Origin: an uncultured Verrucomicrobiae bacterium
GTDB lineage: Bacteria > Verrucomicrobiota > Verrucomicrobiia > Limisphaerales > AAA164-E04
Direction of reading: 5' to 3'
DNA length: 64,000 bases
Assembly: GCA_951813855.1 (NCBI GenBank)
Contig: OX638380.1
Coordinates: 1,380,876-1,444,875 of the forward strand
Shown: positions 32,453 through 63,386 of the stretch, piece after piece
How the letters are laid out: every line of letters starts with the position of its first letter
How positions within the stretch are numbered: position 1 is the stretch's first letter
Position numbers and translations under genes: made by a program
The notes under the pieces: model-generated
Seen by the model: the letters and a program-made list of their open reading frames with translations, nothing else
What the model was told of the DNA's origin: nothing
The model's database searches: none

Positions 32453-33739
32453 CGCATCGATCGTAATGATGGCTCCTCGGATATCGACATCCTCCAAGAG
32501 AGCCGCCATCGCCGCCTGTTCGCCGCCTTGGTCTCGGCAACTGCGAACGGCGATGGGCACCGCATCTTGATGGCGCACGAGGATGACGGTCTCGAAATGG
32601 TCTTTGCTGTTGCGATTAGCTCCGTTGATCCGCTTGCCGTCAGCAGCCAAGGCTTCCAGGGGTTGTCGAGTCAATTGGGCCGTTACCCAGCGGTGAGTTA
32701 CCGTTTGCAACGCTTCCGGATCCGTCTCGGTCATGACCCGGTGAATCGTCGCGAGAGACGGGGCTACGTAACGGTCCTTGGCGTTGCGCCACGCCCCGAG
32801 AGTCTGTAATTGGTTTTGCGTAATTTTTTGGGCGTAACGCGAAGTCGCCAAGGGGCCGACCTTGCCGGCCAATCGAGCTAAGATGCAGATAGCGAGCACC
32901 ATTTCCAGCCGATGTTTGCGTCCTTGGGCTCGGCGAAAATCAGCCATTTCCGCGAGCAGTTGCACCAATGATTTCAACTGTTTCGGGGACGTTTCTACCC
33001 GTTGCACCTGGGGGCCCCAAGACGGATCGTCCTTACGGTCCCTTAATCGGGAACCGGCTTGGGGACGCAAGGGATAAAGGTACATTTCCTTCTTTATATT
33101 GTGCCGGGCGGTATAGCGTCCGTTGCTGCGAGCGTAGCCTTGCGATTGCCCTGCCGCCCGCCAATTCCCCGCGCGATAGATCGTGCCCGCGAAGTGTCGG
33201 GGATCGACGAAAGTTTCGGCCAATTCCAACGGATGACCCCAGGTCCGTTGCCAATCGGCACTCAGCCGGCGCAGCATTTTGGCCATGACGCAACTCCCCA
33301 GATTGCGCACTTCGCCCCGCTCGGTAAGCAGGAGGAATCGGGTATTGTTGGCAATCAAATGAAGCCGACGAAACTGCTCTCGTTTTTTCCATCCGAGCCA
33401 CTTGTCTCGCGGGCGACACTGGAACACTCCGCTTTGCCAGCCGGCTAACGCCAACCACCGGCCTCGGTACTCGGCAACATAACGCAGCCCGCGTCCGGCA
33501 AAGCCTTTGAAACCCAAGCGATGGTTCTGATCCATCAGCGAATCCCAACGTCTTCGCTCACTGCTCTTCACCAATCGAACAGTCACCAGCTTGAGGTTGA
33601 TTTTGGCGTCCATGAGGAACCAATAACGACCGGAGAATGAAAAAGCCAGCTTTATTTTCCCATTTTGAAGACGCTGAAGTTTCGGCTCTCTGGTGAAGGG
33701 AAAAAGCGAATATGGCTCGAAATCGGTGACACGGGCCAC
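32453..33739 (-). pseudogene. DUF4338-ISAs1 transposase, N-terminal piece (copy 1)
   Basis: From a GTG at 33739 the frame encodes the complete DUF4338 (DruA-like) module (GRGLRYVAEYRGRWLALAGW ... ETFVDPRHFAGTIYRAGNW) and the first part of the ISAs1 catalytic domain, with DGKRING and TIDALHT carrying the two catalytic aspartates. It breaks where the nested element begins; the last residues before the stop at 32411 come from that element. Confidence 0.9.
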
Positions 33740-33764
33740 TAGCGATTAGCGTGAAAAAAACCTG

Positions 33765-33774
33765 AGGCTTATCG
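33765..33774. repeat. 10-bp target duplication, right side of nest 1
   Basis: AGGCTTATCG, identical to 24604-24613. Confidence 0.92.
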
Positions 33775-34439
33775 AAAAACGTTGGGCACGATCACTAAAC
33801 AGAAATCAGGCCGTATCTACGCTAAAGGTTCAACGGTTTCTTCGCTCTCGACGAACAGGCGCCGAACTTTCCAAGTCGCAAAAGCCGGGACGGGAACGGT
33901 GATCGAATCGCGAAAAGGATGAGTGTTTTCAAGAATTAACAAATGCCGGCTTGAATTCCTCCAAAATATGAATTGGAATGCACGGCATGCAAGGTGGCAT
34001 CCCATGAACCGCGTGGAGCAGAACCGGGAGGCCTGTCAAAGTTCAGACCTTACCCAGGCTCGCAACGGGGCATCGGAACAGGATAATCGACGCCTTCTTC
34101 TGCAAACGTTGACTAATGACGGCCAAGTCGGTTCCACCGTGAAATCTGCCTCTGACAGCCTCGTCGTCAAGTTGCCAACCGGGGACCGGAACCTGCGGGA
34201 GCCAAACCAATCCGGTCATGATTTCGGGCGTTCCCGGCACCCCGCACATCAGTTGGAACGAGAGATTCAGGGTTTGCGGCACCAACTCCGAGACACGCCT
34301 CCTGAATTAGCGATGAACCAGTGGGGAACGGTGACTCGTCGGATCGGTCCTCGGACCAGGGCCGGACGTTTTCCCGGCTCCACTACGGAAAACTACGCCA
34401 AGTGGAGAAGATTGGAATGGTTTTATCGGAATCACCTTC
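33775..34439. other. Degenerate region between the two IS nests
   Basis: Before the nest inserted, this DNA was joined directly to the sequence at 24603. On the minus strand a short open stretch ending at 33817 encodes SITVPVPAFATWKVRRLFVE and could be the C-terminal tail of a lost host gene. Another minus-strand stretch at 34043-34285 also looks like decayed coding sequence. No intact gene is visible. Confidence 0.4.
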
Positions 34440-34861
34440 GAATCCGAGCACGAAAACCCAGAAGAATCACAATGAGGCCGAATAGGAGCCAATCGGCGGA
34501 AATACCCCGGGCAATAGGAACTGGCCTGGCTCAGCCGGAAATCGTTCAATCAGACGGTGCCGGTTGGAAAGCAGGAGAAAAAATCAAGTGTCTGATGGCG
34601 TGGGACGATGACCGAGCGGTTTTACCCCCAACCCTACCGTATCACCGAGCTGTTAAGGTCCCCGCAATGATCACTCCCTCTATTAAAGGAATGATGATCA
34701 GCGATCACGCTCCGGAATACCAGCATCACAAATGTAGCTCAGTCTTACGACACCTATGGATGAACCGTCGAAATCGATTGGTCACCAATTACGTTATGAG
34801 CGCCAACATACGAATTCGTAATCGCACTTTTCGGAAATTGGCTGGCGAAAATGACGAATAA
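34440..34861 (+). pseudogene. Decayed IS66-like transposase relic
   Basis: The plus-strand frame ending at 34861 contains GLAQPEIVQSDGAGWKAGEK, then LM, fifteen residues, HRAVKV, and ITPSIKGMMISD. The IS66 transposase at 42565-44171 shows ELAQAEIIHTDDTGWKVGG, LM, fifteen residues, HRAVEV, and IDPSFQGIVVVD with the same spacing, so I read this as a strongly diverged relic of such a transposase. The N-terminal half of the same open frame does not align. No inverted repeats were found. Confidence 0.45.
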
Positions 34862-34883
34862 TGGGAACATTCCGGGAGAACAT

Positions 34884-35987
34884 ATGAAAGGAATCATAAC
34901 TGCATTCACCATGTCGTTGATCATGGGATGGAACGGATTTTTCGTTTCAAGCGGGGCTCAAGATTTAGACGATTTTAAGAAATTCGTGACCCAAGACATT
35001 AAACCCGTGAAGATACGTTTTCTAAAATATTACCCTCGATATCGAGAATACCTGGTGTCTTTTTACGATGTTCATTATCAATCGAACGCTTACATCGTGA
35101 AACACACTAATTTCACCCAAACCAATGACTTCGACTGGCCCGACTTCGACTGGCCCATACTAACTAATTATACAGTAAGTGTAAACTGGAACAACATTTA
35201 CTATACGTATAACAAGGCTGCTTGGTTTCAGGATAGCAGCTTGAAAGACGAGGATGTGTATTACCATGAAATAAGAGAAAAACTAATGAACAGCGAGACC
35301 ATGAATGAGCACGATAAGATTATATATGATTTGCACGAGGTTTTGAATCTTGGGGTAACGTATGCCCCGCTCTGGGAGTTTACGATCGATGGTGAAACTA
35401 TTAGTTCAACCAACTCTTTTCCCTCGGACAAAAGGCCAACAGCATCTGAAAGACGATTTTCTGTAATCGGAGATATCCTCGTTAATGTGAACGATACGGT
35501 AGTCGGTCTGGATTTGTGGGGAGTGCGCCTTTGGTTAGACGAAGAGGTAGATTCTGGTGATTATCATTGGCTAAAGGAATATCATTATGACGATACTTTT
35601 TCATCAGAGCCGAGTATGCCAAGTATCATCGATTACAAGGGAGTAAGGAATAATACAACCATTCAATTGCATCGGTTCATAATCGATCACTTCGAATATA
35701 GTCGTTATCTGCCTGAAACGAATTTTTTACCTGTTAATGTGTTGGGCGAAACGAACATTAACACCTATTACCGGATGACCGACGATGGCTGGATTTATAC
35801 TAATGAAGTTGGTCATTTAATGGTTAAAGTGAACAATGGGGAAGATCGTCGTCTGATGACAGGACTTGATAGATTTATGATGAAATTTATAAAGATCATA
35901 CCGATACTGATATTAATTTTGCTTAGCTCGTTTGTTTTTTGGTTCATTCGAACGAAAGCCGGTCCAAGATCTACAAAAACGAATTAA
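34884..35987 (+). CDS. Orphan secreted or membrane-anchored protein, AT-rich
   Basis: Started at the ATG at 34884 (GGGAG five bases upstream) it has 367 residues. Residues 1-25 look like a signal peptide, and near the C terminus IIPILILILLSSFVFWFI is a membrane anchor followed by a basic tail, so most of the protein should face outward. It is rich in Tyr, Asp, Asn and Trp and has no domain I recognise. A perfect 15-base tandem duplication (35127-35141 and 35142-35156) gives DFDWPDFDWP. Base composition is clearly more AT-rich than the housekeeping genes, which suggests acquisition from elsewhere. It lies alone between the two IS nests. Confidence 0.7.
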   Translation: MKGIITAFTMSLIMGWNGFFVSSGAQDLDDFKKFVTQDIKPVKIRFLKYYPRYREYLVSFYDVHYQSNAYIVKHTNFTQTNDFDWPDFDWPILTNYTVSVNWNNIYYTYNKAAWFQDSSLKDEDVYYHEIREKLMNSETMNEHDKIIYDLHEVLNLGVTYAPLWEFTIDGETISSTNSFPSDKRPTASERRFSVIGDILVNVNDTVVGLDLWGVRLWLDEEVDSGDYHWLKEYHYDDTFSSEPSMPSIIDYKGVRNNTTIQLHRFIIDHFEYSRYLPETNFLPVNVLGETNINTYYRMTDDGWIYTNEVGHLMVKVNNGEDRRLMTGLDRFMMKFIKIIPILILILLSSFVFWFIRTKAGPRSTKTN

Positions 35988-36017
35988 AGTCCGTTTTCGG
36001 TCGTTACCTAAAGCATT

Positions 36018-36025
36018 CAATAATA
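36018..36025. repeat. 8-bp target duplication, left side of nest 2
   Basis: CAATAATA precedes the left IS66 end; CGATAATA follows the right end at 44252-44259. Seven of eight bases match. Confidence 0.8.
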
Positions 36026-36340
36026 GTAATTGATTAGCGGGTTTGAACACCATTTCGAACTGAACGATCTGACGAAAAGAGCGCATTCCCATTATCAAGG
36101 ATTTCATGTCTCGCTTCTTTCAAAAGATGAGTGATCTCATTCCATCCGACGTCCCTGGTTGATCGTCTGGCGGCTTGAGATCAAATATCCTCGACCATCA
36201 ACGTTTGCTTTCGAGCGGCATTCGATTGCCGTTCCAGCAAAATTACGGAGATAATCTCAAGCCCCGTGATTTCGGAAAACCAGTGCTGCAAGCACGAGAA
36301 GACTTTAGCCGGTATCAACCGAGGGTGATCGAACCGAGAA

Positions 36341-36410
36341 CTAGAGCGCTGACGCCAACGTCTCCAAAACCAACTCCTTTTTCAGTCGAGAGGTAGCCGT
36401 GACGCTAGTG
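36341..36410 (-). pseudogene. IS66 element 2 transposase, C-terminal piece
   Basis: The minus strand encodes TSVTATSRLKKELVLETLASAL and a TAG stop (36341-36343). This completes the sequence broken off at ...SRAAITS near 42573; the frame joins across the 8-bp duplication CGCTAGTG (36403-36410 and 42565-42572). Confidence 0.85.
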
Positions 36411-36618
36411 CTACCGAGTAGACATATAATTAGTGTCTGGTCCAAAAGGGACGATTTTTCAATAAATCCTGCATTTCAAGCGGTTTTTTTTGTAACATTT
36501 TGTTCGATTTATTTGTCTAACATTCGAGTCGGAACTTTGATTTTTACCTGAAAAATGGACTTTCAGCGTCCTTGAGACCAATTGTCAGCATCTTTGAGAC
36601 TAATCTTCGATTCCTAAC

Positions 36619-37826
36619 ATGAGAATCTTCAGAACCACTCAACCCGCATTTCAACCCGTACCCTTCGAGGAAATTAAGTTCGACCCCACGCAACGTGATG
36701 GCGTCGTTCGAATCTTGATTGGGCTACAGAGTGTTTATGGTAACGAATCATTATGGCTCCAGATACTGCAGCTGCTGGAAAATCATTTTCAACAGTTCGG
36801 CGACCAAGGATTCGGTCGTCCGGGCATGAGTGCCTGGACGATTCTAGTTCTAGCTCTCATCAAACACAGTTTAAGATGCAATTACGATCTTTTGCTAACC
36901 CTCGCTAATTATCATAAGCAGTTGCGATTTGTCTTAGGCCATGGTGATTTCGAACCGGGGGGAGAATATAAACGAACCACCGTGATTCAAAACGTCAATC
37001 TCTTGACTCCCGAATTGATTGAGGAAATCAACTTGCTGATCGTCAAGCATGGTCAGCAGGTTGCGGGGCATCAAGAAGGAGACCAACTCAAAACGCGTTG
37101 CGATTCGTTCGTGGTGGAAACGGATGTCCATTATCCCACCGATCTCAATTTGCTCTATGATTGCATTCGAACTCTGATTCGTGAATGCAAAAAACGGAAC
37201 CTGAAGGGGTGGAGGCAAAGTCACCATTGGCTGAAGAAGATTCGGAAATTGTTTTTTTCCGTTCGCACCGCTCAGCTGGCGAACCGCCGTCTCGACCAGG
37301 TCCAGGCTTATCTGAAGGCCTGCGACCACATCCTGGAGCGAGCCAGTGCGTCGTGGGATCGGCAGAGGGAGAAAAAGAAGATCAAGGCGAAAAAACACCA
37401 GCAAATCCAAGGTTTTTTGAAATGCGGTCGTCTCTTGTCGCGTCAAGCGGATCGGCGAATTCTACAAGGAGAAACCATTCCGGCGGACGAAAAGATCTAT
37501 TCCGTATTCGAACCTCATACGCGGTGGATCCAGAAAGGAAAGGCAGGCAAACCGGTAGAACTCGGGGTGCCCGTTTGCATCGTGGAAGATCAACACCAAT
37601 TTGTTTTGACTTATCGGGTCATGTGGCAAGAAGAGGATGTGCACGTGGCCATCCCGATCCTCGAGGAGACCAAAAAACTATTTCCAGACTTGTTCAGTTG
37701 CAGTTTCGACAAAGGGTTTCATAATCCACCTAATCAGGAGAAACTCCGGGAGATGGTTCCAGAAGTAACCTTGCCTAAAAAAGGGAAACTTACCAAAAAG
37801 GAGCAAGAACGCGAGACTACCGAGGC
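36619..37826 (+). pseudogene. ISNCY-type transposase, 5' piece
   Basis: The first 402 codons of a transposase: the DNA-binding N-terminal part (GRPGMSAWTILVLALIKHSL), a helical linker, and part of the catalytic domain (FEPHTRWIQKGKAGKPVELG, CSFDKGFHNPPNQEKL). The frame runs into the IS66 end and stops at 37830. Joined with 39736-39955 it gives a 475-residue protein without further lesions. Confidence 0.85.
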
Positions 37827-39727
37827 GTAACTGCCTACGTATTGGATGCCTTTTTTGACAAGAATGACCCATTAGTTCGTGAGTGCCGGTTCAACCCTGG
37901 CAAAGTTAGGCGGCCTGCAACTTAACGGCCAGTTCTTTTGCGGAAAGTGCCAGAGTTTCGACGATTTCCCACCCTCGTTTTTTGGCAGTGCTGATGACGC
38001 TGTACAGAGCGACGAAATCTCGAGCGCCTGCTTCGGTGCGAAAGCATCCGAAGATTTTCATGCAGAGTTTCATCATTCTCAAGTCGCGTTCGGCCAAATT
38101 GTTGGTAAAAGGGATGTTCCAATCCCTCACAAACCGAAGGAAATCCTCTTTTTTACCCTGGAGCCGTAACGCCAGATTATGGCCGGGACGTCGTTTCTTC
38201 CTGCCGCGCTTACGAGAAGATACGAGTGGATTCTCCTCATGATAGGTTATCGCCAGCGCCAACAATTCACTAAATCGGCGATCGATTTTTTCCCAGATCT
38301 CATCCGAAACGAAGGGCGAACCTCGATTGCCGGCTTGAGCGGCGCGATATTTTGCTCGCCGAACGTATCGTTCCAGCAGCAGCAGGAACCGATGCATTTT
38401 TTGAGCCCAAATCTCGCCTTGTTCCATGACCGCCTGCAATTCCCGCAATAGATGAGCATTGCAGTACCCATGAATGAGATCCGTTAATTTCGCATAGGAA
38501 GGCATGCAGTCATGAACCACTCGTCCCTGGAGAGACTCAAACATGGCGCCGCGGGTGGGCGAAATGCGATAGCACGTCAGGGTCAGAGTGCTCATGACGT
38601 GCAGCCACCAAAGGCGACCGCCGATGCGAAAACCAGTCTCGTCCAGATGCTTGGTCTCGGTTCCTTGCGCCACCTGTCGTTCCAATTTCTGGAGCACTTG
38701 AGCGATTAGTTTCGCCGCCCGTTGACACATCTTCTTGACCGTGGCTGAGGAGAGATCGACCTTCAAAAGCACGCGCATAATGTCCACGACTCGCCGCTCG
38801 GGCAGGAATTGAGCGACCCGCAGATAGATCACTTTCGCGGTCAAAATCGGGCCGAACTGGATCGGCCCGTCAACTCCCTTGGGAAAGGCGGCTTTGACCC
38901 GCTTGCCGCATTTCGGACAGGAGCAACTGTGAGCTCGATATTCCGTGTACTCCAGTTGGCGATTCGCCTCATTCTCGTCCAGAACTTGTCGCTTCTCGCA
39001 AGTCGAATCCCATTCGGTATCTGAATCGAGAGTTTCCCCGCAATGCGGGCAGACCTCCGGGTACCGATCCTCGTGATGATCCGGATGCGAACATTGTTCC
39101 ATGGTCCGGCCTTGATGTCCGGGTTGGCCACCTAACGGTTTCTTTTCGCACTGGCGTTTAGGTTGGCCGTTGACGGTGGCGTTTTTCTTTTTCAACCCAT
39201 CCGAAGAAGGCGGCTTGCTGCTGTTGCTACTGTCCTTGGCGGCTTGTTGCTTTAACTCCGTGATGGTTTCCGTTAATTCGCCAACCAAGGCGAGCTGCTC
39301 CTCTAATTGTTCCTGGAGCTGTTTCTCCCCGGAAGCGGCACCGTCGGACCGTTCGGCGGTTGCTGATTCGGAAGGGAACGTCGAAACGCCGTCTGGAATA
39401 GTTGCCGCGGCGTTACCATTCTCCCAGCGGACTTTTTCCTCCTTCAATTCGGTGATCTGATCCTTCTGCCGCTGGACCAAAAGTTCCAATTCTCGAATTC
39501 GGTGAAGAAGTTCCTGAATTCGCTGCCGCAACTCCTTGATTTTTGATTTCAGCAGCGGAAACTGCTGGAATAAGAATAGAAAGAGATTGATCCCCCGAGC
39601 TGGTTTCGTTTGAGGATCGCTGGAAGTCGATTCTGTTTGATTTGCAGAAACGCTCGCCATGACCCATAATAGCACGCTTCGAGCGTTTCCGCAAGGAAAA
39701 TTGAATATCGGATACGTAGGCAGTTAC
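37827..39727 (-). mobile_element. IS66-family element 1, innermost layer of nest 2
   Basis: 1901 bp. The ends read inward GTAACTGCCTACGTAT as inverted repeats. The 8-bp target duplication ACCGAGGC is at 37819-37826 and 39728-39735. It carries one gene only (tnpC), with no tnpA or tnpB, as in the ISBst12 subgroup. Confidence 0.93.
37906..39660 (-). CDS. IS66-family transposase (TnpC)
   Basis: 584 residues from the ATG at 39660 (39675 is possible). The N-terminal coiled coil (KSKIKELRQRIQELLHRIRE) is followed by SSNSSKPPSSDG, the zinc-binding region (CPHCGETL; CSCPKCGK), and the IS66 catalytic core (KHLDETGFRIGG; VVHDCMPSYAKL; NIPFTNNLAERDLRMMKLCMKI). It appears intact and is the youngest insertion in this nest. 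Confidence 0.92.
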   Translation of the reverse strand: MASVSANQTESTSSDPQTKPARGINLFLFLFQQFPLLKSKIKELRQRIQELLHRIRELELLVQRQKDQITELKEEKVRWENGNAAATIPDGVSTFPSESATAERSDGAASGEKQLQEQLEEQLALVGELTETITELKQQAAKDSSNSSKPPSSDGLKKKNATVNGQPKRQCEKKPLGGQPGHQGRTMEQCSHPDHHEDRYPEVCPHCGETLDSDTEWDSTCEKRQVLDENEANRQLEYTEYRAHSCSCPKCGKRVKAAFPKGVDGPIQFGPILTAKVIYLRVAQFLPERRVVDIMRVLLKVDLSSATVKKMCQRAAKLIAQVLQKLERQVAQGTETKHLDETGFRIGGRLWWLHVMSTLTLTCYRISPTRGAMFESLQGRVVHDCMPSYAKLTDLIHGYCNAHLLRELQAVMEQGEIWAQKMHRFLLLLERYVRRAKYRAAQAGNRGSPFVSDEIWEKIDRRFSELLALAITYHEENPLVSSRKRGRKKRRPGHNLALRLQGKKEDFLRFVRDWNIPFTNNLAERDLRMMKLCMKIFGCFRTEAGARDFVALYSVISTAKKRGWEIVETLALSAKELAVKLQAA

Positions 39728-39735
39728 ACCGAGGC

Positions 39736-39955
39736 TTTCAAAATCGCCCGGAAGCAACATCCCGCTGTCGAATCAGCCATCAACCATTTGGAACACCGAG
39801 GCCTCAATCGAGTCTACTCCTACGGCTCAGACGGATTCAAACGCACCGTAGCTCTAGCCGTTCTCTGTGCCAATTGTTGTCGCCTTGGCAGCCTCGTTCG
39901 AAACAAGGAGCTGCAGCGTCTCTCCAAGCCATTGGTTCGTCCGAAAGCGGCTTAA
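39736..39955 (+). pseudogene. ISNCY-type transposase, 3' piece
   Basis: Encodes FKIARKQHPAVESAINHLEH, then RVYSYGSDGFKRTVALAVL, the conserved C-terminal end of ISNCY-type transposases. It continues the frame of 36619-37826 exactly once the IS66 element and one duplication copy are removed. Confidence 0.9.
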
Positions 39956-40138
39956 CTAAATCGCCAAATCAATGTCAAGAATGGGAGGGGTGCGTCTTGA
40001 ATTCTGTAAAAGATCAAAAAAAATACAATTTAAGATAAATATGTCGATTTAACCACTTATTTCGATCTAATTTGAAATTATTTTTTTTAGTTTTTAAAGA
40101 AATCAACTATGAATTTTGACTTTTGGACTTGACACTAA

Positions 40139-42505
40139 TTACATGGCAATGGCTTTTTTGCCTGCCTCAAAACCTGCCTTATACGCTGCTTCGTATACCT
40201 CGGCACACTTGGAGCCGTAGCCGTAGCGATGTCCCAAACTCGCTCCCGAAAGCTTCGTATAGCCATACCACATGATTTGATTTCCGGGTTCGGTGTCATG
40301 CTTGCGACCGCGGTAGCCTCCCAGCTCGGCTACCAACCGAACCGCGTTGCCCAACTCATTCGGCAATTTCATCTTGAGTGCCAAGGCGTAGTGCTTTAAA
40401 AAACTCAGTTCCTCATCGCTGAACATTAATTTCGGATCGCAATCAGGCACTTGGCGACCCAAGAGCGTCATCACCATGATACGCCAAGCGATCACGGCAT
40501 TGATCGCGATGGCACGTTGTAATCTGCTGGCGGTACGGAACATCAAGTATTCGGCTTTGCATCCCGATTTGAGGACTCGAAAAAAATCCTCGATCCGCCA
40601 ACGTTGATGATAAAACCTCACCATTTCGGCGGCTTTTTCGGCATCTTTGACGTCCACGCTAGTCAATAAATACCACTGGATGGGTTTTTCCTCTTCGGGC
40701 GGGTCGGTTTCCTCGACATGAACGGCGGAGAGCCGGACCGGTTCGGCCTGGGGACAAGTTTTCGTCGCGGGCAGCGTCACATGACAGAACCGCAAAGCGC
40801 AGCGCGCCACTCGCTTCTTCCGCGTTGGTCGAGCTGCCTTGCGGCTGGATTTCGGGCGTTCCGTCAGACCGTCGACTTCCAGGCTCAAATGATCCACGGG
40901 CCGTTGACGTTTGATGGTGGCGAATAGTTTCGCTTCTTCAGGCTTTAGTTTTCGGTCGTGTCGGGCTCGCACCAGTAGTTCCGTTCGAGGGCGTTGACGC
41001 TGAGCGTGAAATAATTCGAACAGGTCCGCTTCGCGATCGCACACCGAGATGACCTGCGTTCGGCGAGTCAGTTGACTCGCCGCGTCGGTGCAATCTTTCC
41101 AGCCAGCCAACCAACGTTGTGAGGCCAAGCGTTCTGTTTTGGCGGCGACTTCAGGTGCCGGATCAAATCCCAAGCGCAACAGCCCCAAAGGCAGACCTTG
41201 ATCGGTGACCGCCAAAGTAGCGTGAAGATGCAGGCCGAAGGCCTTGGCCTGGGTTTGATTCTGCCCGATAACGCTCAAGTCTTCGCACCCGGGGCGAGTG
41301 GTGAAATTGAAATCGGTGCCGTCTTGAATCGCCAGCACCGTCTTTTGACCGCGCATGCGTCGGAGGCTGCGTTCCCGATGTGGCGCCAAGATGTTGGTCA
41401 CCGTGACCTCCGAGGTCTCCGGTTGCTCAATCAAACGATAATAGCCGCAGATCGCCGCTTCATCGCTCTGGTCGTTGGCATTGATGGCTCGCCCCGGATA
41501 CTCCGCCAGCAGCGAAGCACTTTTGATCAGTCGGGCTGTCAAGCGCTGATCCCCCAACCTGGCTTCTCCAAACTCAGTCGCGGCCCATTCTTCTGAATTC
41601 AGTCCCGCTCCGATCGGCAGCGTGACCGCCAGCTCAACCCAGGGAACTCCCAGACGCCGGCGCCAATCGCGCCGCAAGGGTTTCACGAATATCCGCTTGA
41701 TCGTTTTTTGGCGAAGGTTTTTTCGATCCTGCCGTCCTCGCCCGGCCGTTTTCCCGACCCAGATGAAATTGGCGGCCTTGAGACAGGTTCCTTGGTAACC
41801 CTCGTCCAGATAGGTTTCCACCAGCCAAGGTTCTTGATTGTAGCAGGCTTGAAATTCCTCGGGCAGCCGGCGCAACAGAGTTCCTAGCAGGTGACTCGCC
41901 AGATTCCGGCAGCGGACCCTGGAGCGGATCAAGAATCGATTCAGGCAAACCATTCGATCAAGCTGAGCCTTTCGCACCGACTCCGACCAGGCTATCCAGT
42001 GATCCCGCGCCCGAACTTTCAAGGCCGCGGCGGCAAAGCCGGCGGCCCCCAAATAGCCATGCTCCGAATGGAACAGATAGCGCAGTTGCTGACCGGCGAA
42101 AGTCGCGATCCCCTGGGGATGCTCTCGAGCGATCAGGGTGTTCCAAATGGCTCGATCCTCCGAAGTTTCAACCCAGATAATATTGAGATTCCGAACGGCC
42201 TTCAACTTGTCCGGAACCGCTTCGGGTTCCGGAATCGGCTAAGCTAACACGCGCGGCCCCGAGGACTTCACCGACGGCTGAGCGTCCGGCAATCGGATCT
42301 CCGGGTGGTTCGACGCCAACGTTCTCAGCACCTTCAAACAACCGGCGACCTGAAGCCGGCCACCTCGATTTCTAAAATCGAAAGTTTCGCAAACCCGGCG
42401 TCCGAAAGCATTCCGGCTCGTGAAAGTTTCAGCCGCTAAGAGGCCAATGATCCTTGATTGCGCCTCGGCGGTTTTCAAAACCAGATTGATGTTCCCTCGT
42501 TTCAC
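40139..42505 (-). pseudogene. DUF4338-IS4 (Tn5-like) fusion transposase with in-frame amber codon
   Basis: One frame runs from a GTG at 42505 to 40139 (789 codons) with a single TAG at 42239-42241 (codon 89). Codons 1-88 hold the N-terminal part of DUF4338 (FGRRVCETFDFRNRGGRLQV). After the TAG follow the rest of DUF4338 (GQQLRYLFHSEHGYLGAAGF ... VETYLDEGYQGTCLKAANFI) and a Tn5/IS4 transposase with QDGTDFNF, CDREADLFELF and YHQRWRIEDFFRVLKSGCKA, the YREK-type catalytic block. Without readthrough only a shortened protein from an internal TTG at 42205 could be made. Its last codon is now a TAA formed at the junction with the ISNCY end. Confidence 0.85.
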
Positions 42506-42564
42506 ACCCCGAAATTACTCGAAGTGAATCCCATTGTCCAGATCTTTTTTTATCTACACGGTAG

Positions 42565-42572
42565 CGCTAGTG
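42565..42572. repeat. Target duplication of the DUF4338-IS4 element, right copy
   Basis: CGCTAGTG, repeated exactly at 36403-36410. Confidence 0.85.
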
Positions 42573-44171
42573 ATGGCCGCCCGACTCTGAGCCCCTCGCT
42601 GATTTTTCGAGCACTGGGAAACCTTCCGAGCCTTGACGCCCGGTCGCAGAGCCCGTTCGGCTCGATTGTTGGTCGGTTCAAGCTTCGGATTGTCCCGAAA
42701 TCGAAGCAACTGGCCCTTTTGATTCTGTTTCCACAAGCTATTCAGCATCTTTTGATTATCCGGATCACTCAAGGATCGTGGTCTCAGATGATGATCAAGC
42801 TTTTGTTTCAAGGCGATCCCTTCCGTCCGAAATTCCTCCGCGGTCCAATGGCCTGCGAAATTCAAATCCCTCGCTTCCATGGCTTGCCGAAAGAGATCTT
42901 TCGTATAATTGGCGAACCACTTCCCTTTTCCAGATTTACGGTCGGCCAAACCGGTCAAATTTCGTTGCCGGTGAGCCAGGCATCTCTGCTGGGGCACGGA
43001 ATCAAAGCTCTGAGGTTGGTAACTCGAAAAGCCGTCAACGACCACGATTCCCTGAAACGAAGGATCGATCACTTGGGCCACCTCGACCGCACGGTGATGC
43101 CGTTCAATTTGATAATAAACCACATTCTCGTTGCAAAACGTCATCAAAAAATGGTCGCTTCCCCCGACTTTCCATCCGGTATCGTCCGTGTGAATGATCT
43201 CCGCTTGAGCCAGCTCCGCCTTGATTTTCTGAGCCAGTTCGCCAATTTTCCCTTGCTCCGCCGCCTTCAGAGCCTTCTGGGTGATCGCGCTTTGGGTCAC
43301 GGGGATCTGGAAAAAATCGTTGATCACCTTCTCCACCTGGCGCCATGACATTCCCGAATCGTAATGCAAGGCCAACGCCTATGCATCGATTCGGGGGCCA
43401 ATTCGATGAGCCGTCGCTCCAAACTGATCCTTCGCTAATTCAGGATGCGTGCCCCGGACCTGGTGTCCGCATCCCGTGCACTTCCCAACCTCAATCGAAA
43501 AGTATTTGATCACTCGGCCAATGAGTCGAGGCAGATCAATCGTCGTCGCGGTTTCCGAGGCCTGTCGTTCCAGTTTCGCCCCGCACTTTGGACAGGCCTC
43601 GGAATCCAGTGAAGCCTGAAACTCTTGGATTTCATCCGGTTCTCGGGGCTCCGGCGGCGGTTTATGGCGAAACTTTCCTTGCCCCGGTTTGCGACCGGGT
43701 TTGGGGGGGGGGTTCTTTGCGGTTGCCCTTGGAAAAAGGGGTGGCCGAACGATGGTTTTCTCTCTCGGATGCTTCCAGTTGTTGCCGCAAATCCTGATTT
43801 TCCCGTTCCAACTGGGCGGCGATCTCGGAATCTGCCGAGGGCGATGTGGGATCAGTTTGGCAACCACAGGAGCCGTTTTGTTGTCGCAAATCTCGGATCA
43901 ATTGCCGCAATTTCCGATTTTCGATTCGTAATTTCTGATTCTGTTGCTGCAATTTCCGATTTTCGTTTTGCAATGGAACGACGGGATCGGAAGAGGAAGT
44001 CTTTTCGGAAGAACCGGCTTGACCCTCACTTACCACCGGCCGCTGACGAAGGCAATGATTTTCCGCTCCCAGCGTCTCCACGCGCTGCATCGCAAGGTCA
44101 AGAGCCTTAATCAATTCCGTTGGATGCGCTTCATGCAGTCGATGAGGATCAATCCCCGGCATGCCGCTCAT
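42565..44171 (-). pseudogene. IS66 element 2 transposase, main piece (frameshift and amber stop)
   Basis: The N-terminal coiled coil (LQNENRKLQQQNQKLRIENR) is in one frame up to a run of ten C (coding strand, 43703-43712); nine would keep the frame into PPPKPGRKPGQGKFRHKPPP and the zinc-binding CPKCGAKL. A TAG at 43379-43381 then interrupts before ALALHYDSGMSWRQVEKVIN. The catalytic core follows (IIHTDDTGWKVGG; IVVVDGFSSY; NNRAERALRPGVK). The gene is cut at 42572 by the IS4-type element. Confidence 0.88.
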
Positions 44172-48030: not shown

Positions 48031-48051
48031 TGCGGTTGCGGAATTCGAAAC

Positions 48052-52609: not shown

Positions 52610-54295
52610 CTATTTCAAACTCTGCAAGCGAATCGCTTCGAACTCGTTTCCGGGATGCCATCGCGGCCAGGTTTCGTCGTGAACGACCCGATACATGACA
52701 TCGGCCAACAAACGCAAATCTTCGACCGCGCCGGCCAGGTTCCAGTCCTCTTTGATTTCGTCAGAAACCTTATGGTAGTCGTTGTTGGTGTACTCCTGCC
52801 GCTTTTGGGCGCCGAATCCTTCCGGCAGTCCGACATATTCCACGCCCGAATCGAGAAACAGCGCCGGGACTCCCTTTTTGGCGAACTGAAAATGATCCGA
52901 GCGGTAATAGAATCCCTTTTCGGGTTCCGGGTCCCCTTTGACCACCCGTTCGTGCACCTCGGCCATTTCCTCCACCAAGGCGTCCATGGTGGAAGCGCCG
53001 TAACCGATCACGACGAGGTCGCGAGTCGGGCCCCACTGATTCAACCCGTCCAAATTGATATTGGCCAAGGTACGGTTCATCGGGAGGGAAGGATTTTCGC
53101 AATAATACTTGGCGCCCAGGAGTCCCTGTTCCTCAGCGGCGGCGGCTAGGAAAACGAGCGATCTCGAAGGCGGGGGACGCAGGCCGGCGAAACTTTTCGC
53201 TAAAGCCAACATACCCGAGACGCCGGTAGCATTGTCCAATGCGCCGTTGTAAATCTGATCGCCGTCCAATTCGGGATTGATGCCCAAATGATCCCAATGA
53301 GCCGTGACGACGACGCATTCACCGGGTTGCTGAGAGCCTTCGATTTTGGCGATCACGTTGCGGGAAGTGATTTCGCGGAATTGACTCTTCATCCGAAAGG
53401 TAACGCTGGCCTGCAAGGGGATAGGAACGAACTCGGGTTGCAACGCCCGCTGTTTGAGTTCGTCGAAGTCGAAACCTAATTCGCGGAACAACGAGCGCGC
53501 CCGCCCGTTGCTGAACCAGGCGGCCACCGGCAACTCGGGTTCGCTCCCGCGGGATTTGAGAGTGAAATTTTCTCCACCCCAACTGTTGACCACAACGAAA
53601 TACGGATATCCGGCCGGTCCGGTTTCGTGAACGATGATGGCGGAGGCGGCCCCTTTCCGAGCCGCTATTTCCAGCTTATAGGTCCAGCGGCCGTAATAAG
53701 TCATTTCCTTTCCCTTGAAGAATTCGGGATCGAGCCGGGAAGGATCCTCCGGATCGGGAATCTGGGGATCGTTCACCAACATCACCAGCGTCCGGCCCGA
53801 CAAATCCGAGTCCTTAAAATCGTCCCAGCCGTATTCGGAAGCTTCGACTCCGTAACCGACGAAAATCAATGGACTATCGACTACGGCCGATTCGGGTTGG
53901 GCTATTCCGGTCCACGCCACGTAATCCTGAGGCCAAGTCAAAGGTCTTTTCTGTCCGTTCAGGGTCAACTCGGCCTGGCTAACGGATTTAATGCCGACCA
54001 GAGGAACTTCTTGAGTCCATCCGCCGTCGGGAGCTCCGGGTTTCAAGCCGTAGTCCCGAAACTCCTGCACCAAGTAATCGACGGTTAATTGTTCTCCGGC
54101 GCCTCCGGGGCCGCGGCCTTCGAACCGATCCGAGGAAAGAACCCGGACATGTTCCAACAGTCCCTCGGCCGAGATGCTGTCGGTCGCCGACCGCAGCTCG
54201 GTGATCGACGATTGCCGAGTCGGAGAATTACCGGAACCACACCCCGCCAATAACATTAGCAATCCGGCATTGATGACGATCGCACGAAAACTCAT
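52610..54295 (-). CDS. Lipoprotein M28-family metallopeptidase with PA domain
   Basis: 561 residues from the ATG at 54295, which gives a lipoprotein signal (LLMLLAGC, lipid-anchored Cys19). A PA-domain-like region lies at about 130-270, inserted before the zinc-peptidase core. Metal ligands of the M28 fold are seen in VVVTAHWDHLGINPELDGDQ, YNGALDNATGVSGMLAL and AAAAEEQGLLGAKYYCENPS, followed by the C-terminal FYYRSDHFQFAKKGVPALFL with the last histidine. It should be an aminopeptidase or carboxypeptidase anchored in an outer or inner membrane facing the periplasm. Confidence 0.9.
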   Translation of the reverse strand: MSFRAIVINAGLLMLLAGCGSGNSPTRQSSITELRSATDSISAEGLLEHVRVLSSDRFEGRGPGGAGEQLTVDYLVQEFRDYGLKPGAPDGGWTQEVPLVGIKSVSQAELTLNGQKRPLTWPQDYVAWTGIAQPESAVVDSPLIFVGYGVEASEYGWDDFKDSDLSGRTLVMLVNDPQIPDPEDPSRLDPEFFKGKEMTYYGRWTYKLEIAARKGAASAIIVHETGPAGYPYFVVVNSWGGENFTLKSRGSEPELPVAAWFSNGRARSLFRELGFDFDELKQRALQPEFVPIPLQASVTFRMKSQFREITSRNVIAKIEGSQQPGECVVVTAHWDHLGINPELDGDQIYNGALDNATGVSGMLALAKSFAGLRPPPSRSLVFLAAAAEEQGLLGAKYYCENPSLPMNRTLANINLDGLNQWGPTRDLVVIGYGASTMDALVEEMAEVHERVVKGDPEPEKGFYYRSDHFQFAKKGVPALFLDSGVEYVGLPEGFGAQKRQEYTNNDYHKVSDEIKEDWNLAGAVEDLRLLADVMYRVVHDETWPRWHPGNEFEAIRLQSLK

Positions 54296-54576
54296 GCCCC
54301 GGACTCTAGCGAAATCATCAGCCAACCGCAGCATTTTTCAACCAAAACGCCCCCGAAGCCCCGGCCTCTCTCTCAAACAGCCATCCGATAGGTGGCAGAC
54401 GATTCCGATCGTCGACCGGCCCCGTAGCTAACGCACTCCTACGGTCGCTCGACCTGTTGAAGTTCGTCCAGTCGACAACGAAACCGCAACCACGTCTGAA
54501 GACGACCGACGAATCGAACCCGATTCCGGGGAAAACTAACGAAAACCGGACCGAATTCGACGAGAAAAAACGGTTG

Positions 54577-55383
54577 TTATTCTTTAGCTGGAATTTCGTT
54601 CACCAGTTCGGCCTGAGCCAAATCCCACAACTCGCGTAATTCGTCGTGGCCACTGGGATCCTCTTCGACAAGGATTTTGTTCAATGCCGCGATCAGATTA
54701 ACCACAATTGCAGACAGGGCGGCAGTAGCTTTTCTCTGTTCTCTCCAATCGACGTTCAAATCTGATTCGACCACGAAACGCAACGAGGCCAAACTGGGGT
54801 TCAACCCCTTCACCAGAGGCATCAGTACCTCATATCGTCCAATTCGAAGGGAAAGATCAATAACGCTGGAGCTCAACGAGCTCATTCGCGTTTCCGACCT
54901 ATTGTCCAGCGAGTCCATTCGTTTGTCCAACGAATCCATTCGCGTTTCCAGTTTGTTTTCCGTCGCGACGATTTGCCCGTTCAACTTGGTATCCAAGGCA
55001 TCGATCTTCCCGGTCAATTTATCTTCCGAAGCCTTGATTTGCACAACCACCTTTTCTTCCAAGGCATCGAACTTTCCGGTCAAATCGGCATCCTGCTCGG
55101 AAATCTTTTCTTCCAAGGCGACGATTTGCCCGGTCAACTTGGTATCCAAGGCATCGATCTTCCCGGTCAACTTGGTATCCTGCAAAACCATCTCCGCTTC
55201 CAGCGAATCCACCCGGGAGTCTAAACGTTCGATGTCTTCCTTCAGGTCCTCCTGCCCTCCCTTCAGGTCTTCCAGTCCAACCGCCAATTGATCCAATTTG
55301 TGCAAATTCGACCACATGAGGATAACGAATCCGCCAAACAGGCTGGCGACCGTGAGCAGCGAAGCTAGATTCCCTACCTTCAA
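54577..55383 (-). CDS. Membrane-anchored coiled-coil repeat protein
   Basis: 268 residues if begun at the TTG at 55383. The frame runs on upstream (PKKPWWQSFE precedes) to a TAA but offers no ATG or GTG, so the true start is unclear. A single N-terminal membrane segment (LASLLTVASLFGGFVILMW) is followed by a long coiled coil built from near-repeats of KLTGKIDALDTKLTGQIVAL type, spanning about residues 40-165, and a C-terminal helical domain (SLASLRFVVESDLNVDWREQ). The repeats are also near-identical in DNA (54976-55010 and 55136-55170). It resembles Bdr-type repeat proteins only in style; no function can be given. It lies 159 bases from ISAs1 copy 2. Confidence 0.65.
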   Translation of the reverse strand: MKVGNLASLLTVASLFGGFVILMWSNLHKLDQLAVGLEDLKGGQEDLKEDIERLDSRVDSLEAEMVLQDTKLTGKIDALDTKLTGQIVALEEKISEQDADLTGKFDALEEKVVVQIKASEDKLTGKIDALDTKLNGQIVATENKLETRMDSLDKRMDSLDNRSETRMSSLSSSVIDLSLRIGRYEVLMPLVKGLNPSLASLRFVVESDLNVDWREQRKATAALSAIVVNLIAALNKILVEEDPSGHDELRELWDLAQAELVNEIPAKE

Positions 55384-55542
55384 CTCGAAACTCTGCCACC
55401 ACGGTTTTTTTGGGGTCTTCCCGTCGACCTCCTGTCTCTCTTTTATTTCTTAATCCTTTCTTTAAGAATTACCGTTATCTGTCTCTACTCCGCTAAGTCT
55501 AGCCTAAAGCCTCGCTCATTGGAAACTCTCTCGCCCATTCCG

Positions 55543-59283
<3,741 letters not shown>

Positions 59284-59312
59284 TGATCGTCGGCAACCCT
59301 ACCCCCTGAGCC

Positions 59313-59723
59313 ATGGCCCAGACGCTGCGATTCGAGATCGTGACGCCGGAAAAGGTGATCTTTTCGGAAAACGTCGAAATCGTGTCCCTCCCCGGCACCG
59401 AGGGAGAGTTGGGGATCTATCCGGGACACGCCCCGCTCATGATTCAGATCGACGCCGGAGAAGTGACGGTCATGCATCGAGGCGAAAACCGTTACCTGGC
59501 CGTCGGGGCCGGATTCGTGGAAATCACCAACCGGAAAGTTTCCGTGCTCACCGACATGGCTCAGGACGCGGACCAGATCGACGAACAGAAAGTCGAAGAA
59601 GCGCGCCAAAACGCCGAACGCCGCTTAGCGGAAAAACTTTCCCCCGAGGAACAGACCGCCGCACAGCTCGCCCTGACCCACTCTCTGGCTCAACTCAAAG
59701 TCAAACGCCGGCGCCGACGATAG
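59313..59723 (+). CDS. atpC: F1F0 ATP synthase subunit epsilon
   Basis: 136 residues. The N-terminal beta-sandwich shows LRFEIVTPEKVIFSENVEIV and LPGTEGELGIYPGHAPLM, followed by the two-helix C terminus ending in a basic tail. It links rotation to the F1 head and inhibits hydrolysis. It begins 29 bases after atpD and is surely cotranscribed. Confidence 0.95.
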   Translation: MAQTLRFEIVTPEKVIFSENVEIVSLPGTEGELGIYPGHAPLMIQIDAGEVTVMHRGENRYLAVGAGFVEITNRKVSVLTDMAQDADQIDEQKVEEARQNAERRLAEKLSPEEQTAAQLALTHSLAQLKVKRRRRR

Positions 59724-60002
59724 GATCGTCCCCGGCATAATTGGCCCCGGCAACTCCCCGACCTTGCTCACGACCCGACTGGCGAAATTGAAATTCGGGC
59801 CGCAGCGTCGCAAGTTGCCGCGCCGGCCGTCTCGGAACAACCTCCCTCTCGTCGGCGTTTACCGGTCAGCCCCGCTCGCCGCGCCGGTCTCTCGTCTGAC
59901 GGAAGAACAATGCCCCGGCCGCTTCGGCCGGCAATGCCGAATCGTACTCTGAAGCAACCGCAACCCGACGCCTTTGAACGAACCGCGGCCGGACCGACGA
60001 AC

Positions 60003-60875
60003 ATGGAAACCTCTGATTCAAATCTGTCGAACAAACAGATAATGGATATCTCGATTGTGGGGAGCGACCACATCGGAACGGTGGCGAAAGCGACCAAATT
60101 CCTCTTCGACTCCGGCGCCAATATCGAGGCTCTGGAAGAACAGGTTCTCAAGGGACGCTTCCGCATGAACATCCAAGCGTCCTGGGAATCGAACGACTGG
60201 GATTATGGGGCCGTCAAGGCGGGATTGGCGCGTCTGGCGGAAGAATTGAAGATGACCATCCGCTACAAGTATCGCCCCGTCGGCGAACCGCAACGATTCG
60301 TCATCTTCGGCTCCCGGGAAAAACACCTGTTGCCGGGCATCATGCAGGCGGTCGAAGAGCACACGATTCAAGCCATCCCTTCATTGGTGATTTCCAACCA
60401 CCAGCACCTGCAACCCCTCGCCGAACAATACCGGCTCCCCTTCCGCTACCTCGACTGGTCCAATCGCCAGAAAGCCGAAAATCAAGCCCTGGAAATCATG
60501 GAAGATTATAACGTGGATTTTCTGGTATTGGCACGCTTCATGAAAATCCTTTCCCCGCAATTGGTCTGGCACTACAAGAACAAGATCATTAATATCCATC
60601 CCTCGCTGCTGCCCAGTTTTCCCGGTCAGAACGCCTACCGCCAGGCTTGGGAACACGGCGTCAAAGTCATCGGCGTAACCGCCCATTTCGTCAACATGCA
60701 CTTGGACGAAGGCCCGATCATCACTCAAAGCAGTTTCGAGGTGAGCCCGAATATGACGCTCAAGGACATTATCGGCAAAGGCCAATTCTTGGAAACCAGC
60801 GTTCTGATCAAGGCGATTCAACTCTACTTGAACTGCCAGCTCGACGTTTACTGGGGCCGGGTGCATTCGATCTGA
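60003..60875 (+). CDS. purU: Formyltetrahydrofolate deformylase
   Basis: 290 residues from the ATG at 60003, the usual length of PurU. An N-terminal ACT domain (ISIVGSDHIGTVAKATKFLF) is followed by a formyltransferase domain with the catalytic Asn-His-Asp set: IINIHPSLLPSFPG and HLDEGPII. It hydrolyses 10-formyl-tetrahydrofolate to formate and tetrahydrofolate, balancing one-carbon pools. The frame stays open upstream to 59910, but that stretch does not resemble PurU. The 279-base gap to atpC suggests its own promoter. Confidence 0.93.
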   Translation: METSDSNLSNKQIMDISIVGSDHIGTVAKATKFLFDSGANIEALEEQVLKGRFRMNIQASWESNDWDYGAVKAGLARLAEELKMTIRYKYRPVGEPQRFVIFGSREKHLLPGIMQAVEEHTIQAIPSLVISNHQHLQPLAEQYRLPFRYLDWSNRQKAENQALEIMEDYNVDFLVLARFMKILSPQLVWHYKNKIINIHPSLLPSFPGQNAYRQAWEHGVKVIGVTAHFVNMHLDEGPIITQSSFEVSPNMTLKDIIGKGQFLETSVLIKAIQLYLNCQLDVYWGRVHSI

Positions 60876-61200
60876 TCCGCACTCGCCCGGGTTCGCAGTT
60901 GCGATTCGGGCCCGGCCGAACCGCCAAGGTTCGAATCGTTACCCGGTCGCCCGGCCGTTCGGAATATTGCCGGCGAGCTCGTGAACTCGAGCGTCCCGGC
61001 CCTTGGGACGACACGTGGCGCCGCCGCGGTTCCGGTTCGACGGTGAAACGGTCAAGGGCCCAGACAACAGCGGGCACCCCCGGACGGACGGCTTCGAAAT
61101 CGATAGCATGCCAAGCTGCCGATTCCTTCCCGGTATCGATGCTCTTAATCCGGTTTCCGGCGGCCCCGGGAACCGGGGACAAATTCGCGCAAACACAACT
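60876..61200. other. Intergenic region between purU and ISAs1 copy 3
   Basis: 325 bases without a recognisable gene, GC-rich. No clear rho-independent terminator with a T run was found after purU. Confidence 0.4.
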
Positions 61201-61210
61201 AAGCCGGCGC
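61201..61210. repeat. 10-bp target duplication, left of ISAs1 copy 3
   Basis: AAGCCGGCGC, repeated exactly at 63387-63396. Confidence 0.93.
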
Positions 61211-63386
61211 CAGGACTTTTTCATGCTAATAATTTTTGATCGACGATCGTTTTTTTAAGTGTCGAGCGGAGTATTTCGATTCGTCGGAAAAACTGTTTTT
61301 CCGAATTATGCTTCGAGTTAGGCGGCGATTGCCGATTGAGACGAGTTTCAGCCGGACAGGAGACTGAACCGGTGCGAGTATCGGTCAAACGATCAATTCG
61401 CCGACCGAATCAGCAAGGAGGAAGCGTCGATAATCAGGAAGGTCGGGTCAGTTTTTTTTCGGACGTTTTTTCGGACGTTTAAACGGGGTGGTTTTCGTAA
61501 CGGCTCGCAACCCTTGGTTCCGATTCGTCTGAAAATCGTCAGTAGCTTCGGCCATATTAGAGTATCCCGACTGGAGAATGATCGCCAAGGCCAGGTTGTT
61601 GAAGAGGGCATTGTTCGTCGGCCCATGGCGAGTTCGCATGAGACAATCATCTTCGCCGAAAATCCCGTCGCGACGGCGATGATTGCCGTTTTCTACCGTC
61701 CAATGTCCCCGATTGAGTGACAACAATCGTTGAGCGTCGGCAGCTTCCGGAGGCAACGAAGTGACGCCGTAAGCATATTCCACGGTCTCGAGCCCACCGT
61801 TCCAATGATGGCGGTGTCGAAGGATCCGAAAGACTTGGAGGACATGCGGTAATTTGACGGCTCCGGGAAGGGGTTCATAGGTTTGAATGCTCCGTTGATC
61901 GATGCGGCCATGTCCTTTCTCCGGGTTTTCGGTGAACCGGTCCTGGGCCACTCGATCCCAATCCAGGCTGGTCAAAAATTGAGAGAGTTCGGGGTTGTTC
62001 TCCTTAACCGTGAAGAGAAAATGGGCTCCGTTAACCAACACGATGGCATCGGCCATGACTCGGTTAGTATGGAGCGCATCGATCGTAATGATGGCTCCCC
62101 GGATATCGACATCCTCCAAGAGAGCCGCCATCGCCGCCTGTTCGCCGCCTTGGTCTCGGCAACTGCGAACGGCGAGGGGCACCGCATCTTGATGGCGCAC
62201 GAGGATGACGGTCTCGAAATGGTCTTTGCTGTTGCGATTAGCTCCGTTGATCCGCTTCCCGTCGGCAGCCAAGGCTTCCAAGGGTTGTCGAGTCAATTGG
62301 GCCGTTACCCAGCGGTGAGTTACCGTTTGCAACGCTTCCGGATCCGTCTCGGTCATGACCCGGTGAATCGTCGCGAGAGACGGGGCCACGCAACGGCCCT
62401 TGGCGTTGCGCCACGCCCCGAGAGTCTGCAATTGGTTTGGCGTCATTTTTTGGGCGTAACGCGAAGTCGCCAAGGGGCCGACCTTGCCGGCCAATCGAGC
62501 TAAGATGCAGATAGCGAGGACCATTTCCAGCCGATGTTTGCGTCCTTGTGCCCGGCGAAAATCAGCCGTTTCCGCTAGCAGTTGCACCAATGATTTCAAC
62601 TGTTTCGGAGACGTTTCTACCCGCTGCACCTGGGGGCCCCAAGACGGATCGTCCTGACGCTTCCTTAATCGGGAACCGGCTTGGGGCCGCAAGGGATAAA
62701 CGTACCTTTCCTTCTTGATATTGTGCCGGGCGGTATAGCGTCCGTTGCTGCGAGCGTAGCCTTGCGATTGCCCTACCGCCCGCCAATTCCCCGCGCGATA
62801 GATCGTGCCCGCGAAGTGTCGGGGATCGACGAAAGTTTCGGCCAATTCCAGCGGATGACCCCAGGTCCGTTGCCAATCGGCACTCAGCCGGCGCAGCATT
62901 TTGGCCATGACGCAGCTCCCCAGATTGCGCACTTCGCCCCGCTCGGTAAGCAGGAGGAATCGGGTATTGTTGGCAATCAAATGAAGCCGACGAAACTGCT
63001 CTCGTTTTTTCCATCCGAGCCACTTGTCTCGCGGGCGACACTTGAACACTCCACTTTGCCAGCCGGCTAACGCCAACCACCGGCCTCGGTACTCGGCAAC
63101 ATAACGCAGCCCGCGTCCGGCAAAGCCTTTGAAACCCAAATAATGGTTCTGATCCATCAGCGAATCCCAGCGTCTTCGCTCACTGCTCTTCACCAATCGA
63201 ACGGTCACCCGCTTGAGGTTGAATTTGGCGTCCCTGAGGAACCAATAACGACCGGAGAATGAAAAAGCCAGCTTTATTTTCCCATTTCGAAGGCGCTAAA
63301 GTTTCGGCTCTCTGGTGAAGGGAAAAAGCGAATATGTCCCGAAATCGGTGACACAGGCCTCTAGCGATTAGCGTGAAAAAACCCTG
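61211..63386 (-). mobile_element. ISAs1-like element with DUF4338 module, copy 3
   Basis: 2176 bp with inverted repeats CAGGACTTTTTCATGCTAAT and CAGGGTTTTTTCACGCTAAT (17 of 20 identical, both read inward) and a perfect 10-bp target duplication. It is the reference copy for rebuilding copy 1. Confidence 0.95.
61448..63208 (-). CDS. DUF4338-ISAs1 fusion transposase (copy 3)
   Basis: 586 residues from a GTG at 63208. Compared with copies 1 and 2 it lacks about 35 N-terminal residues because a TAG stands where copy 1 has CAG, in the KL(Q)RLRNGK segment. The DUF4338 module is complete (FAGRGLRYVAEYRGRWLALA; ETFVDPRHFAGTIYRAGNW), as is the catalytic domain with ALAADGKRING, TIDALHTNRVMADA and GHWTVENGNHRRRDGIFGED. 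Whether it is active depends on whether the short N terminus is needed. Confidence 0.88.
   Translation of the reverse strand: MTVRLVKSSERRRWDSLMDQNHYLGFKGFAGRGLRYVAEYRGRWLALAGWQSGVFKCRPRDKWLGWKKREQFRRLHLIANNTRFLLLTERGEVRNLGSCVMAKMLRRLSADWQRTWGHPLELAETFVDPRHFAGTIYRAGNWRAVGQSQGYARSNGRYTARHNIKKERYVYPLRPQAGSRLRKRQDDPSWGPQVQRVETSPKQLKSLVQLLAETADFRRAQGRKHRLEMVLAICILARLAGKVGPLATSRYAQKMTPNQLQTLGAWRNAKGRCVAPSLATIHRVMTETDPEALQTVTHRWVTAQLTRQPLEALAADGKRINGANRNSKDHFETVILVRHQDAVPLAVRSCRDQGGEQAAMAALLEDVDIRGAIITIDALHTNRVMADAIVLVNGAHFLFTVKENNPELSQFLTSLDWDRVAQDRFTENPEKGHGRIDQRSIQTYEPLPGAVKLPHVLQVFRILRHRHHWNGGLETVEYAYGVTSLPPEAADAQRLLSLNRGHWTVENGNHRRRDGIFGEDDCLMRTRHGPTNNALFNNLALAIILQSGYSNMAEATDDFQTNRNQGLRAVTKTTPFKRPKKRPKKN

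Follow-up and report, generated by a model that had tools for sequence, protein, structure and literature searches.

Four transposase genes within a 64,000-nucleotide stretch of the genome of an uncultured Verrucomicrobiae bacterium (contig OX638380.1 of assembly GCA_951813855.1, positions 1,380,876 to 1,444,875; hereafter the window, in whose coordinates all features are given) encode a DruA domain (DUF4338; PFAM: PF14236) in front of their catalytic part. A preliminary description had recognized a similar N-terminal module on transposases of the ISAs1 type and the Tn5/IS4 type and had assigned it to DUF4338, the domain of the anti-phage protein DruA. Profile searches bear this out, as all four proteins score above the curated PFAM cut-off of 27 bits (64.2, 74.3, 76.0 and 83.9 bits). 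The C-terminal parts of the three ISAs1-type proteins match DDE_Tnp_1_assoc, to which DDE_Tnp_1 is added in the two non-truncated copies, and the copy of 615 amino acids (aa) scores 156.6 bits with the ISAs1 model NF033564 (cut-off 70). In the Tn5-type protein the DruA domain is followed by the PFAM domains Tnp_DNA_bind, DDE_Tnp_1 and Dimer_Tnp_Tn5, and its catalytic part scores 307.1 bits with the IS4 model NF033590 (cut-off 160). The catalytic parts thus belong to different insertion sequence (IS) families, but calling them unrelated was too strong, as both match PF01609.

One ISAs1-type element is complete and lies on the plus strand (55543-57719); it has CAGG... ends, and no target duplication was found at its flanks. 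Its transposase gene (55575-57482, GTG start) encodes 635 aa, with the DruA domain at 55719-56249 (65.7 bits in the genome search). The other three genes are located on the minus strand, a layout that had been missed. The second complete ISAs1-type element (61211-63386) is flanked by the 10-base-pair (bp) duplication GCGCCGGCTT and contains, from stop to stop, a frame of 615 aa plus stop codon (61448-63295, GTG start at 63208) with the DruA domain at 62681-63211; the module modelled below corresponds to 62591-63238. The third element is split by nested insertions, and the gene reported at 32453-33739 (actually 32411-33739) represents only its left part (32444-33764). Further pieces are found at 27769-27883 and 24614-25372, the right end is at 24614, and CGATAAGCCT is present at both flanks (33765-33774 and 24604-24613). 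The DruA domain of this truncated copy is located at 33089-33607.

The IS4/Tn5-type element (36411-42564) carries nested insertions near its right end and is bracketed by the 8-bp duplication CACTAGCG (42565-42572 and 36403-36410). The frame described earlier as 40139-42505 is interrupted by an in-frame TAG at 42239-42241, which severs the transposase frame of 699 aa (40142-42238) from its upstream part; the DruA domain (41693-42187; module modelled, 41594-42238) lies downstream of this TAG, and the IS4 catalytic part occupies 40244-41446. The nested insertions comprise one ISNCY and one IS66 transposase. Another copy (L011) has the ISNCY part in common, lacks the IS66 part and has a duplication of its own, GGCTAGGA, so the IS4 and ISNCY parts may have moved together.

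Spread and partners of the DruA module

The source genome (4.89 Mb, one contig) contains 64 PF14236 matches, 62 of them above the cut-off. Their frames can be grouped into an ISAs1 lineage of 34, a second ISAs1 lineage of eight and an IS4/Tn5-type lineage of 11, and the rest consists of one IS4 pair, eight short fragments and L055, which represents a third ISAs1 lineage. Ten representatives served to identify the catalytic parts with PFAM and NCBIfam. DruA is found directly upstream and on the same strand for 41 of the 42 ISAs1 matches above the cut-off and is carried by all 12 IS4_3 matches above the cut-off.

Most full copies of the main ISAs1 element measure 2165-2178 bp and have CAGG... 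ends, with a single long transposase frame in each complete element of this size, and six copies (including the reference) are identical end to end. Target duplications of ISAs1 usually measure 8-10 bp. Duplications of 9 bp or more were recovered in 25 of the 34 rows of the main lineage, and 9-bp duplications in five of the eight rows of the second; two of the 34 rows (L026) could only be assessed jointly, as one pair. The IS4-type element duplicates 8 bp; both ends could be located in nine of 13 rows, and the two sides agree in eight of these, the ninth differing at two bases. Considering that terminal repeats and target duplications bracket it, the DruA module resides in moving elements. The duplications also speak against target choice, one of the roles suggested earlier, as a function common to all modules: the nine IS4-type duplications all have a central CTAG, the insertion sites being NNCTAGNN (CTAG occurs 43 times in the window), whereas among 20 ISAs1 duplications with a length of 10 bp no base is above 9/20 at any position, and CTAG is present in one. 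The five 9-bp ISAs1 duplications, which were left out of this tally, do not contain CTAG.

Beyond the source genome, PF14236 matches were present in 41 of 387 genomes of the same phylum, and in 27 of 297, 17 of 398 and 37 of 299 genomes of the phyla to which an Acidobacteriaceae, a Burkholderiaceae and an Alicyclobacillus record belong, respectively. No relatives were recovered from viral contigs, queried with two of the window proteins, or from phage records, queried with the module of L074 (a locus in another genome). The joining to different DDE enzymes that had been pointed out earlier is evident from the partners. Apart from ISAs1 and IS4, DruA is fused in one locus each to IS701 (L066; NF033540, 299.3 bits) and to another subgroup of IS4 (L223; NF033592, 155.5 bits), and in IS66 it constitutes a separate adjoining gene. 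A total of 218 loci were sorted with our own models, a set with often short flanks that includes repeated copies from one genome. DruA was fused to ISAs1 in 24 loci, to an IS4/Tn5-type transposase in nine, and to IS701 and IS66 TnpB in one each; in a further 104 loci, IS66 genes lay on the same strand and no more than 700 bases away. Two were only situated beside a match to the ISAs1/IS4 models, 64 (L223 included) lacked a called partner and 13 did not match our own DruA model. The IS66 share is inflated, since the loci L094-L173 are the best 80 of at least 582 confirmed loci as ranked against the first IS66-linked sequence. Among nine scanned neighbours of uncalled loci there were four with transposase domains, three without a family and two with other functions (a dCTP deaminase-like protein and a tagaturonate epimerase).

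The IS66 arrangement recurs in Alicyclobacillus sp. ALC3 (G387), where eight copies (L294-L301) of a 2495-bp element encode DruA (290 aa) and TnpC (513 aa), and a 7-bp direct repeat is present at both flanks in seven of them; our own TnpB model found no match in this element. In one locus (L158:3602-4954) a single frame joins IS66 TnpB to DruA. Moreover, PF14236 was encountered in frames of 1077-1858 aa (G282:C127, G692:C34, G727:C50, G1299:C25 and G1157:C1), in the first four of which it is present in two separated pieces.

Thirteen DruA-ISAs1 elements, picked for being split (L071, L076, L078, L079, L081, L083, L085, L086, L087, L089, L090, L201 and L287), have their catalytic domain distributed over two frames. 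All 13 junctions contain a run of at least five identical bases (2.6 expected), which in eight cases exceeds every background window, and the direction of the shift varies. These sequence features suggest programmed frameshifting or slippage, with assembly errors being possible for some. In Desulfoferrobacter suflitae (G393) four near-identical DruA-ISAs1 copies of 1927 bp (L302-L305), with 10-bp duplications, show a -1 overlap; the stop is immediately preceded by A AAA AAG, and a hairpin of -12 kcal/mol is predicted downstream.

The ratio of nonsynonymous to synonymous polymorphism (pN/pS) for DruA versus the catalytic part was 0.38 versus 0.25 for ISAs1 (18 distinct proteins), 0.40 versus 0.29 for IS4 (seven copies) and 0.22 versus 0.32 for the second ISAs1 lineage (three copies with few changes). 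The module thus shows signs of purifying selection. Between ISAs1 lineages, identity is higher in DruA than in the catalytic part (49% versus 34% and 50% versus 26%), and between the two IS4 lineages it is slightly lower (58% versus 62%).

Relation to the Mom protein of phage Mu

Besides DruA, the only families listed over the module were PFAM Mom (PF25680) and the PHROG family 'Mom-like DNA modification protein', with 1.7e-6 as the best value (L074); the same locus scores 28.3 bits with PF25680, at a cut-off of 27.1. This connection is new here and was missing from the preliminary description. When the DruA profile was aligned with that of nine phage Mom proteins, hhalign yielded a score of 56.7 over 164 columns, while none of 60 column-shuffled Mom decoys scored above 31.7. 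At eight positions the two families conserve the same residue (H48, Y49, S114, G146, Y149, A151, N153 and G158 of Mu Mom), where permutation gave a mean of 0.65 and a maximum of 5 in 10,000. As the alignment was not redone in the permutation, which favours matches, the shuffled decoys provide the fairer control.

The title of the Mom crystal structure 8bv8, 'inactive mutant S124A', is the basis on which a residue needed for activity can be named, and sequence comparison identifies the altered residue as S114 of the GenBank protein. This serine aligns with the invariant Ser of DruA, which is retained in 234 of 236 aligned rows, and the counterpart of H48 is found in all 231 rows with a residue at that position. 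The underlying table comprises 238 aligned rows, 47 of them without a called partner and many of them near copies, after exclusion of rows with a DruA score below 100 and of copies from our own clusters shorter than 280 aa.

A sequence search recovered no solved DruA structure. The two types of module were modelled from alignments of 73 rows, drawn for both from one set of relatives, and each was compared separately with the PDB. Both the Tn5-type module (pLDDT 88.2, pTM 0.84) and the ISAs1-type module (pLDDT 86.3, pTM 0.80) are predicted to adopt a GNAT fold, and for both the best PDB match is Mu Mom (8bv8), with Foldseek E-values of 4.3e-7 and 2.9e-8, respectively. In the VIA comparison Mom reached a Z of 15.3 with the Tn5-type module (171 residues, 3.7 Å; next row 13.5) and of 15.7 with the ISAs1-type module (169 residues, 3.7 Å; next row 13.2). 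Nearly all of the listed rows below Mom are named acetyltransferases that act on proteins or small molecules. The module thus shares with Mom the fold and the serine that was inactivated in 8bv8, and is almost certainly homologous to it.

Possible function of the module

According to one account, Mom is a GNAT that transfers an acyl group to the N6 position of adenine (PMC7824862). Judged from residues and models, the most likely reading, to which we would give about even chances, is that the DruA module is a Mom-like DNA-modifying acyltransferase with a predicted activity near the transposase. As a GNAT-fold homologue of Mom it would place an acyl-type group on DNA adenine. The transposase would bring this enzyme to the DNA of the element, either by fusion (ISAs1, IS4, IS701) or as the product of a neighbouring gene (IS66), and the module would then, at about the time of transposition, mark bases in the element or in its ends. 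Such a mark might protect the transposition intermediate and the newly made copy against host nucleases, in the way that Mom protects Mu, or alternatively might regulate further transposition. Catalysis, DNA as the substrate, adenine as the target, action in cis and a benefit of the module are all elements of this scheme that we infer. The broader proposition, that DNA-marking transposases occur across at least four DDE families, with a Mom-type acyltransferase modifying bases of the element while it transposes and Druantia DruA as a later branch of this transposon enzyme, is more tentative, and its chances are clearly less than even.

Several observations weigh against a modifying enzyme. The window proteins score 13.4-19.5 bits with PF25680 and so stay below its cut-off; at E<=0.1 PFAM Mom was found in four of ten representatives from the source genome and five of ten from other genomes, and PHROG Mom in five of six, thus weakly and not universally. 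The identity between Mom and the module is 14-17%. In the IS4 lineage of the window, Y49 is replaced by P (9/9) and Y149 by L (10/10), and in the amplified ISAs1 lineage R takes the place of Y49 in 24 of 30; given these replacements of the Mom tyrosines, the copies in the window lineages may be altered or inactive. Finally, all ten near-full-length ISAs1 frames among the matches listed for the same phylum outside the source genome measure 382-471 aa, too short to hold both DruA and a catalytic part, and DruA is therefore not needed for transposition as such.

The replacement of both Mom-shared tyrosines in the IS4 lineage would also fit a GNAT-fold module that is not an enzyme and instead contacts DNA or keeps the dimer of the transposase or the end complex assembled, the explanation that we rank second and consider rather unlikely. 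The usual GNAT loop, [QR]xxGx[GA], points in the same direction: despite the GNAT fold of the models, it occurs near the conserved Ser in only 7 of 236 DruA rows, although it is absent from seven of the nine Mom proteins as well (present in two). The practically invariant His and Ser over ISAs1, IS4, IS701 and IS66, however, exceed what a scaffold would seem to need.

Given the GNAT fold and the protein and small-molecule acetyltransferases that follow Mom among the PDB rows, the module could also be a protein acetyltransferase that regulates transposition by acting on the transposase itself or on a host protein. This third-ranked explanation is improbable, considering that Mom leads the next PDB rows by 1.8 and 2.5 Z units, that the eight conserved residues are common to Mom and that the identified partners are transposases.

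The association itself might reflect descent from a single joining in a common DDE ancestor instead of repeated recruitment, for which the PF01609 matches of both ISAs1 and IS4 could be cited, as could the tree, where DruA sequences cluster according to the type of transposase (17 IS4 rows, for instance, with a support of 0.976). This is improbable, however, since the IS66 (PF03050) and IS701 (PF13546) partners match other DDE families, IS66 elements encode DruA separately from the transposase, and ISAs1 transposases without room for DruA exist in the phylum; the control E. coli, moreover, has an ISAs1 match and no PF14236 match. The tree, a quick FastTree analysis with weak deep nodes in which the Druantia rows have 104-135 gapped columns, does not fix the direction and number of recruitments, because the support at depth is too weak.

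A DNA-modifying acyltransferase as the preferred reading would imply that transposases with a base-modifying enzyme of their own represent a new route to self-protection or self-marking. The finding would also bring together the study of insertion sequences, of DNA modification by phages and of Druantia, a system yet to be deciphered, and it provides a testable guess for the DUF4338 proteins in defence loci.

Comparison with known systems

In the open-access literature we found no discussion of a link between DUF4338 and Mom or of DUF4338-transposase fusions. Single DruA-transposase fusions have nevertheless been deposited without comment, as on plasmids of 'Candidatus Thiodictyon syntrophicum', where one DruA match lies in an annotated 'ISAs1 family transposase' and another in a 'DUF4338 domain-containing protein'. 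The DruA-bearing elements resemble ordinary ISAs1, IS4, IS701 and IS66 in having catalytic parts above the NCBIfam cut-offs and, for ISAs1, IS4 and IS66, in terminal repeats and duplications; they differ in the additional DruA module or gene. The same domain, called a GNAT domain, is reported as a fusion to DndF (PMC10853773), a partner that differs in being a phosphorothioate-linked defence protein. A DruA-like structure is also reported for Synechococcus phage proteins (PMC12774648).

Mu Mom (PF25680; 8bv8, 'methylcarbamoylase mom') resembles the module in fold, collinear alignment and the positions of His-Tyr, Ser and Gly..Tyr.Ala.Asn. While Mom occurs as a free protein of the phage, the DruA module is joined to transposases and has an extra RD..GW motif and a putative activity.

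For Druantia, nine full-length Druantia-type DruA proteins were compared, three of which (L209, L239 and L262) were confirmed by PADLOC. Druantia type I DruA shares with the IS module the PFAM family and the RD..GW motif (9/9), and it differs in being a longer stand-alone protein without equivalents of the His, Ala and Asn of Mom; the second Tyr is kept in 9/9 and the Ser in 6/9. The PADLOC DruA model (PDLC00002) recognizes Druantia-type rows at 1e-112 to 1e-211, and in the source genome, where copies of the window lineages were scanned in place of the window proteins themselves, it found one of six lineage representatives at E<=0.01 (7e-4), far from the strong match of type I DruA. By hhalign, Druantia DruA scores 74.0 with the IS module and weakly with Mom directly (22.2; decoy maximum 18.9). 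The homology that the preliminary description had in mind for the defence protein is therefore real, with Druantia DruA as a distant branch, and its origin from a mobile enzyme, as judged from these alignments, is possible. On the basis of the hhalign scores and the residues kept, the IS module stands between Mom and Druantia DruA.

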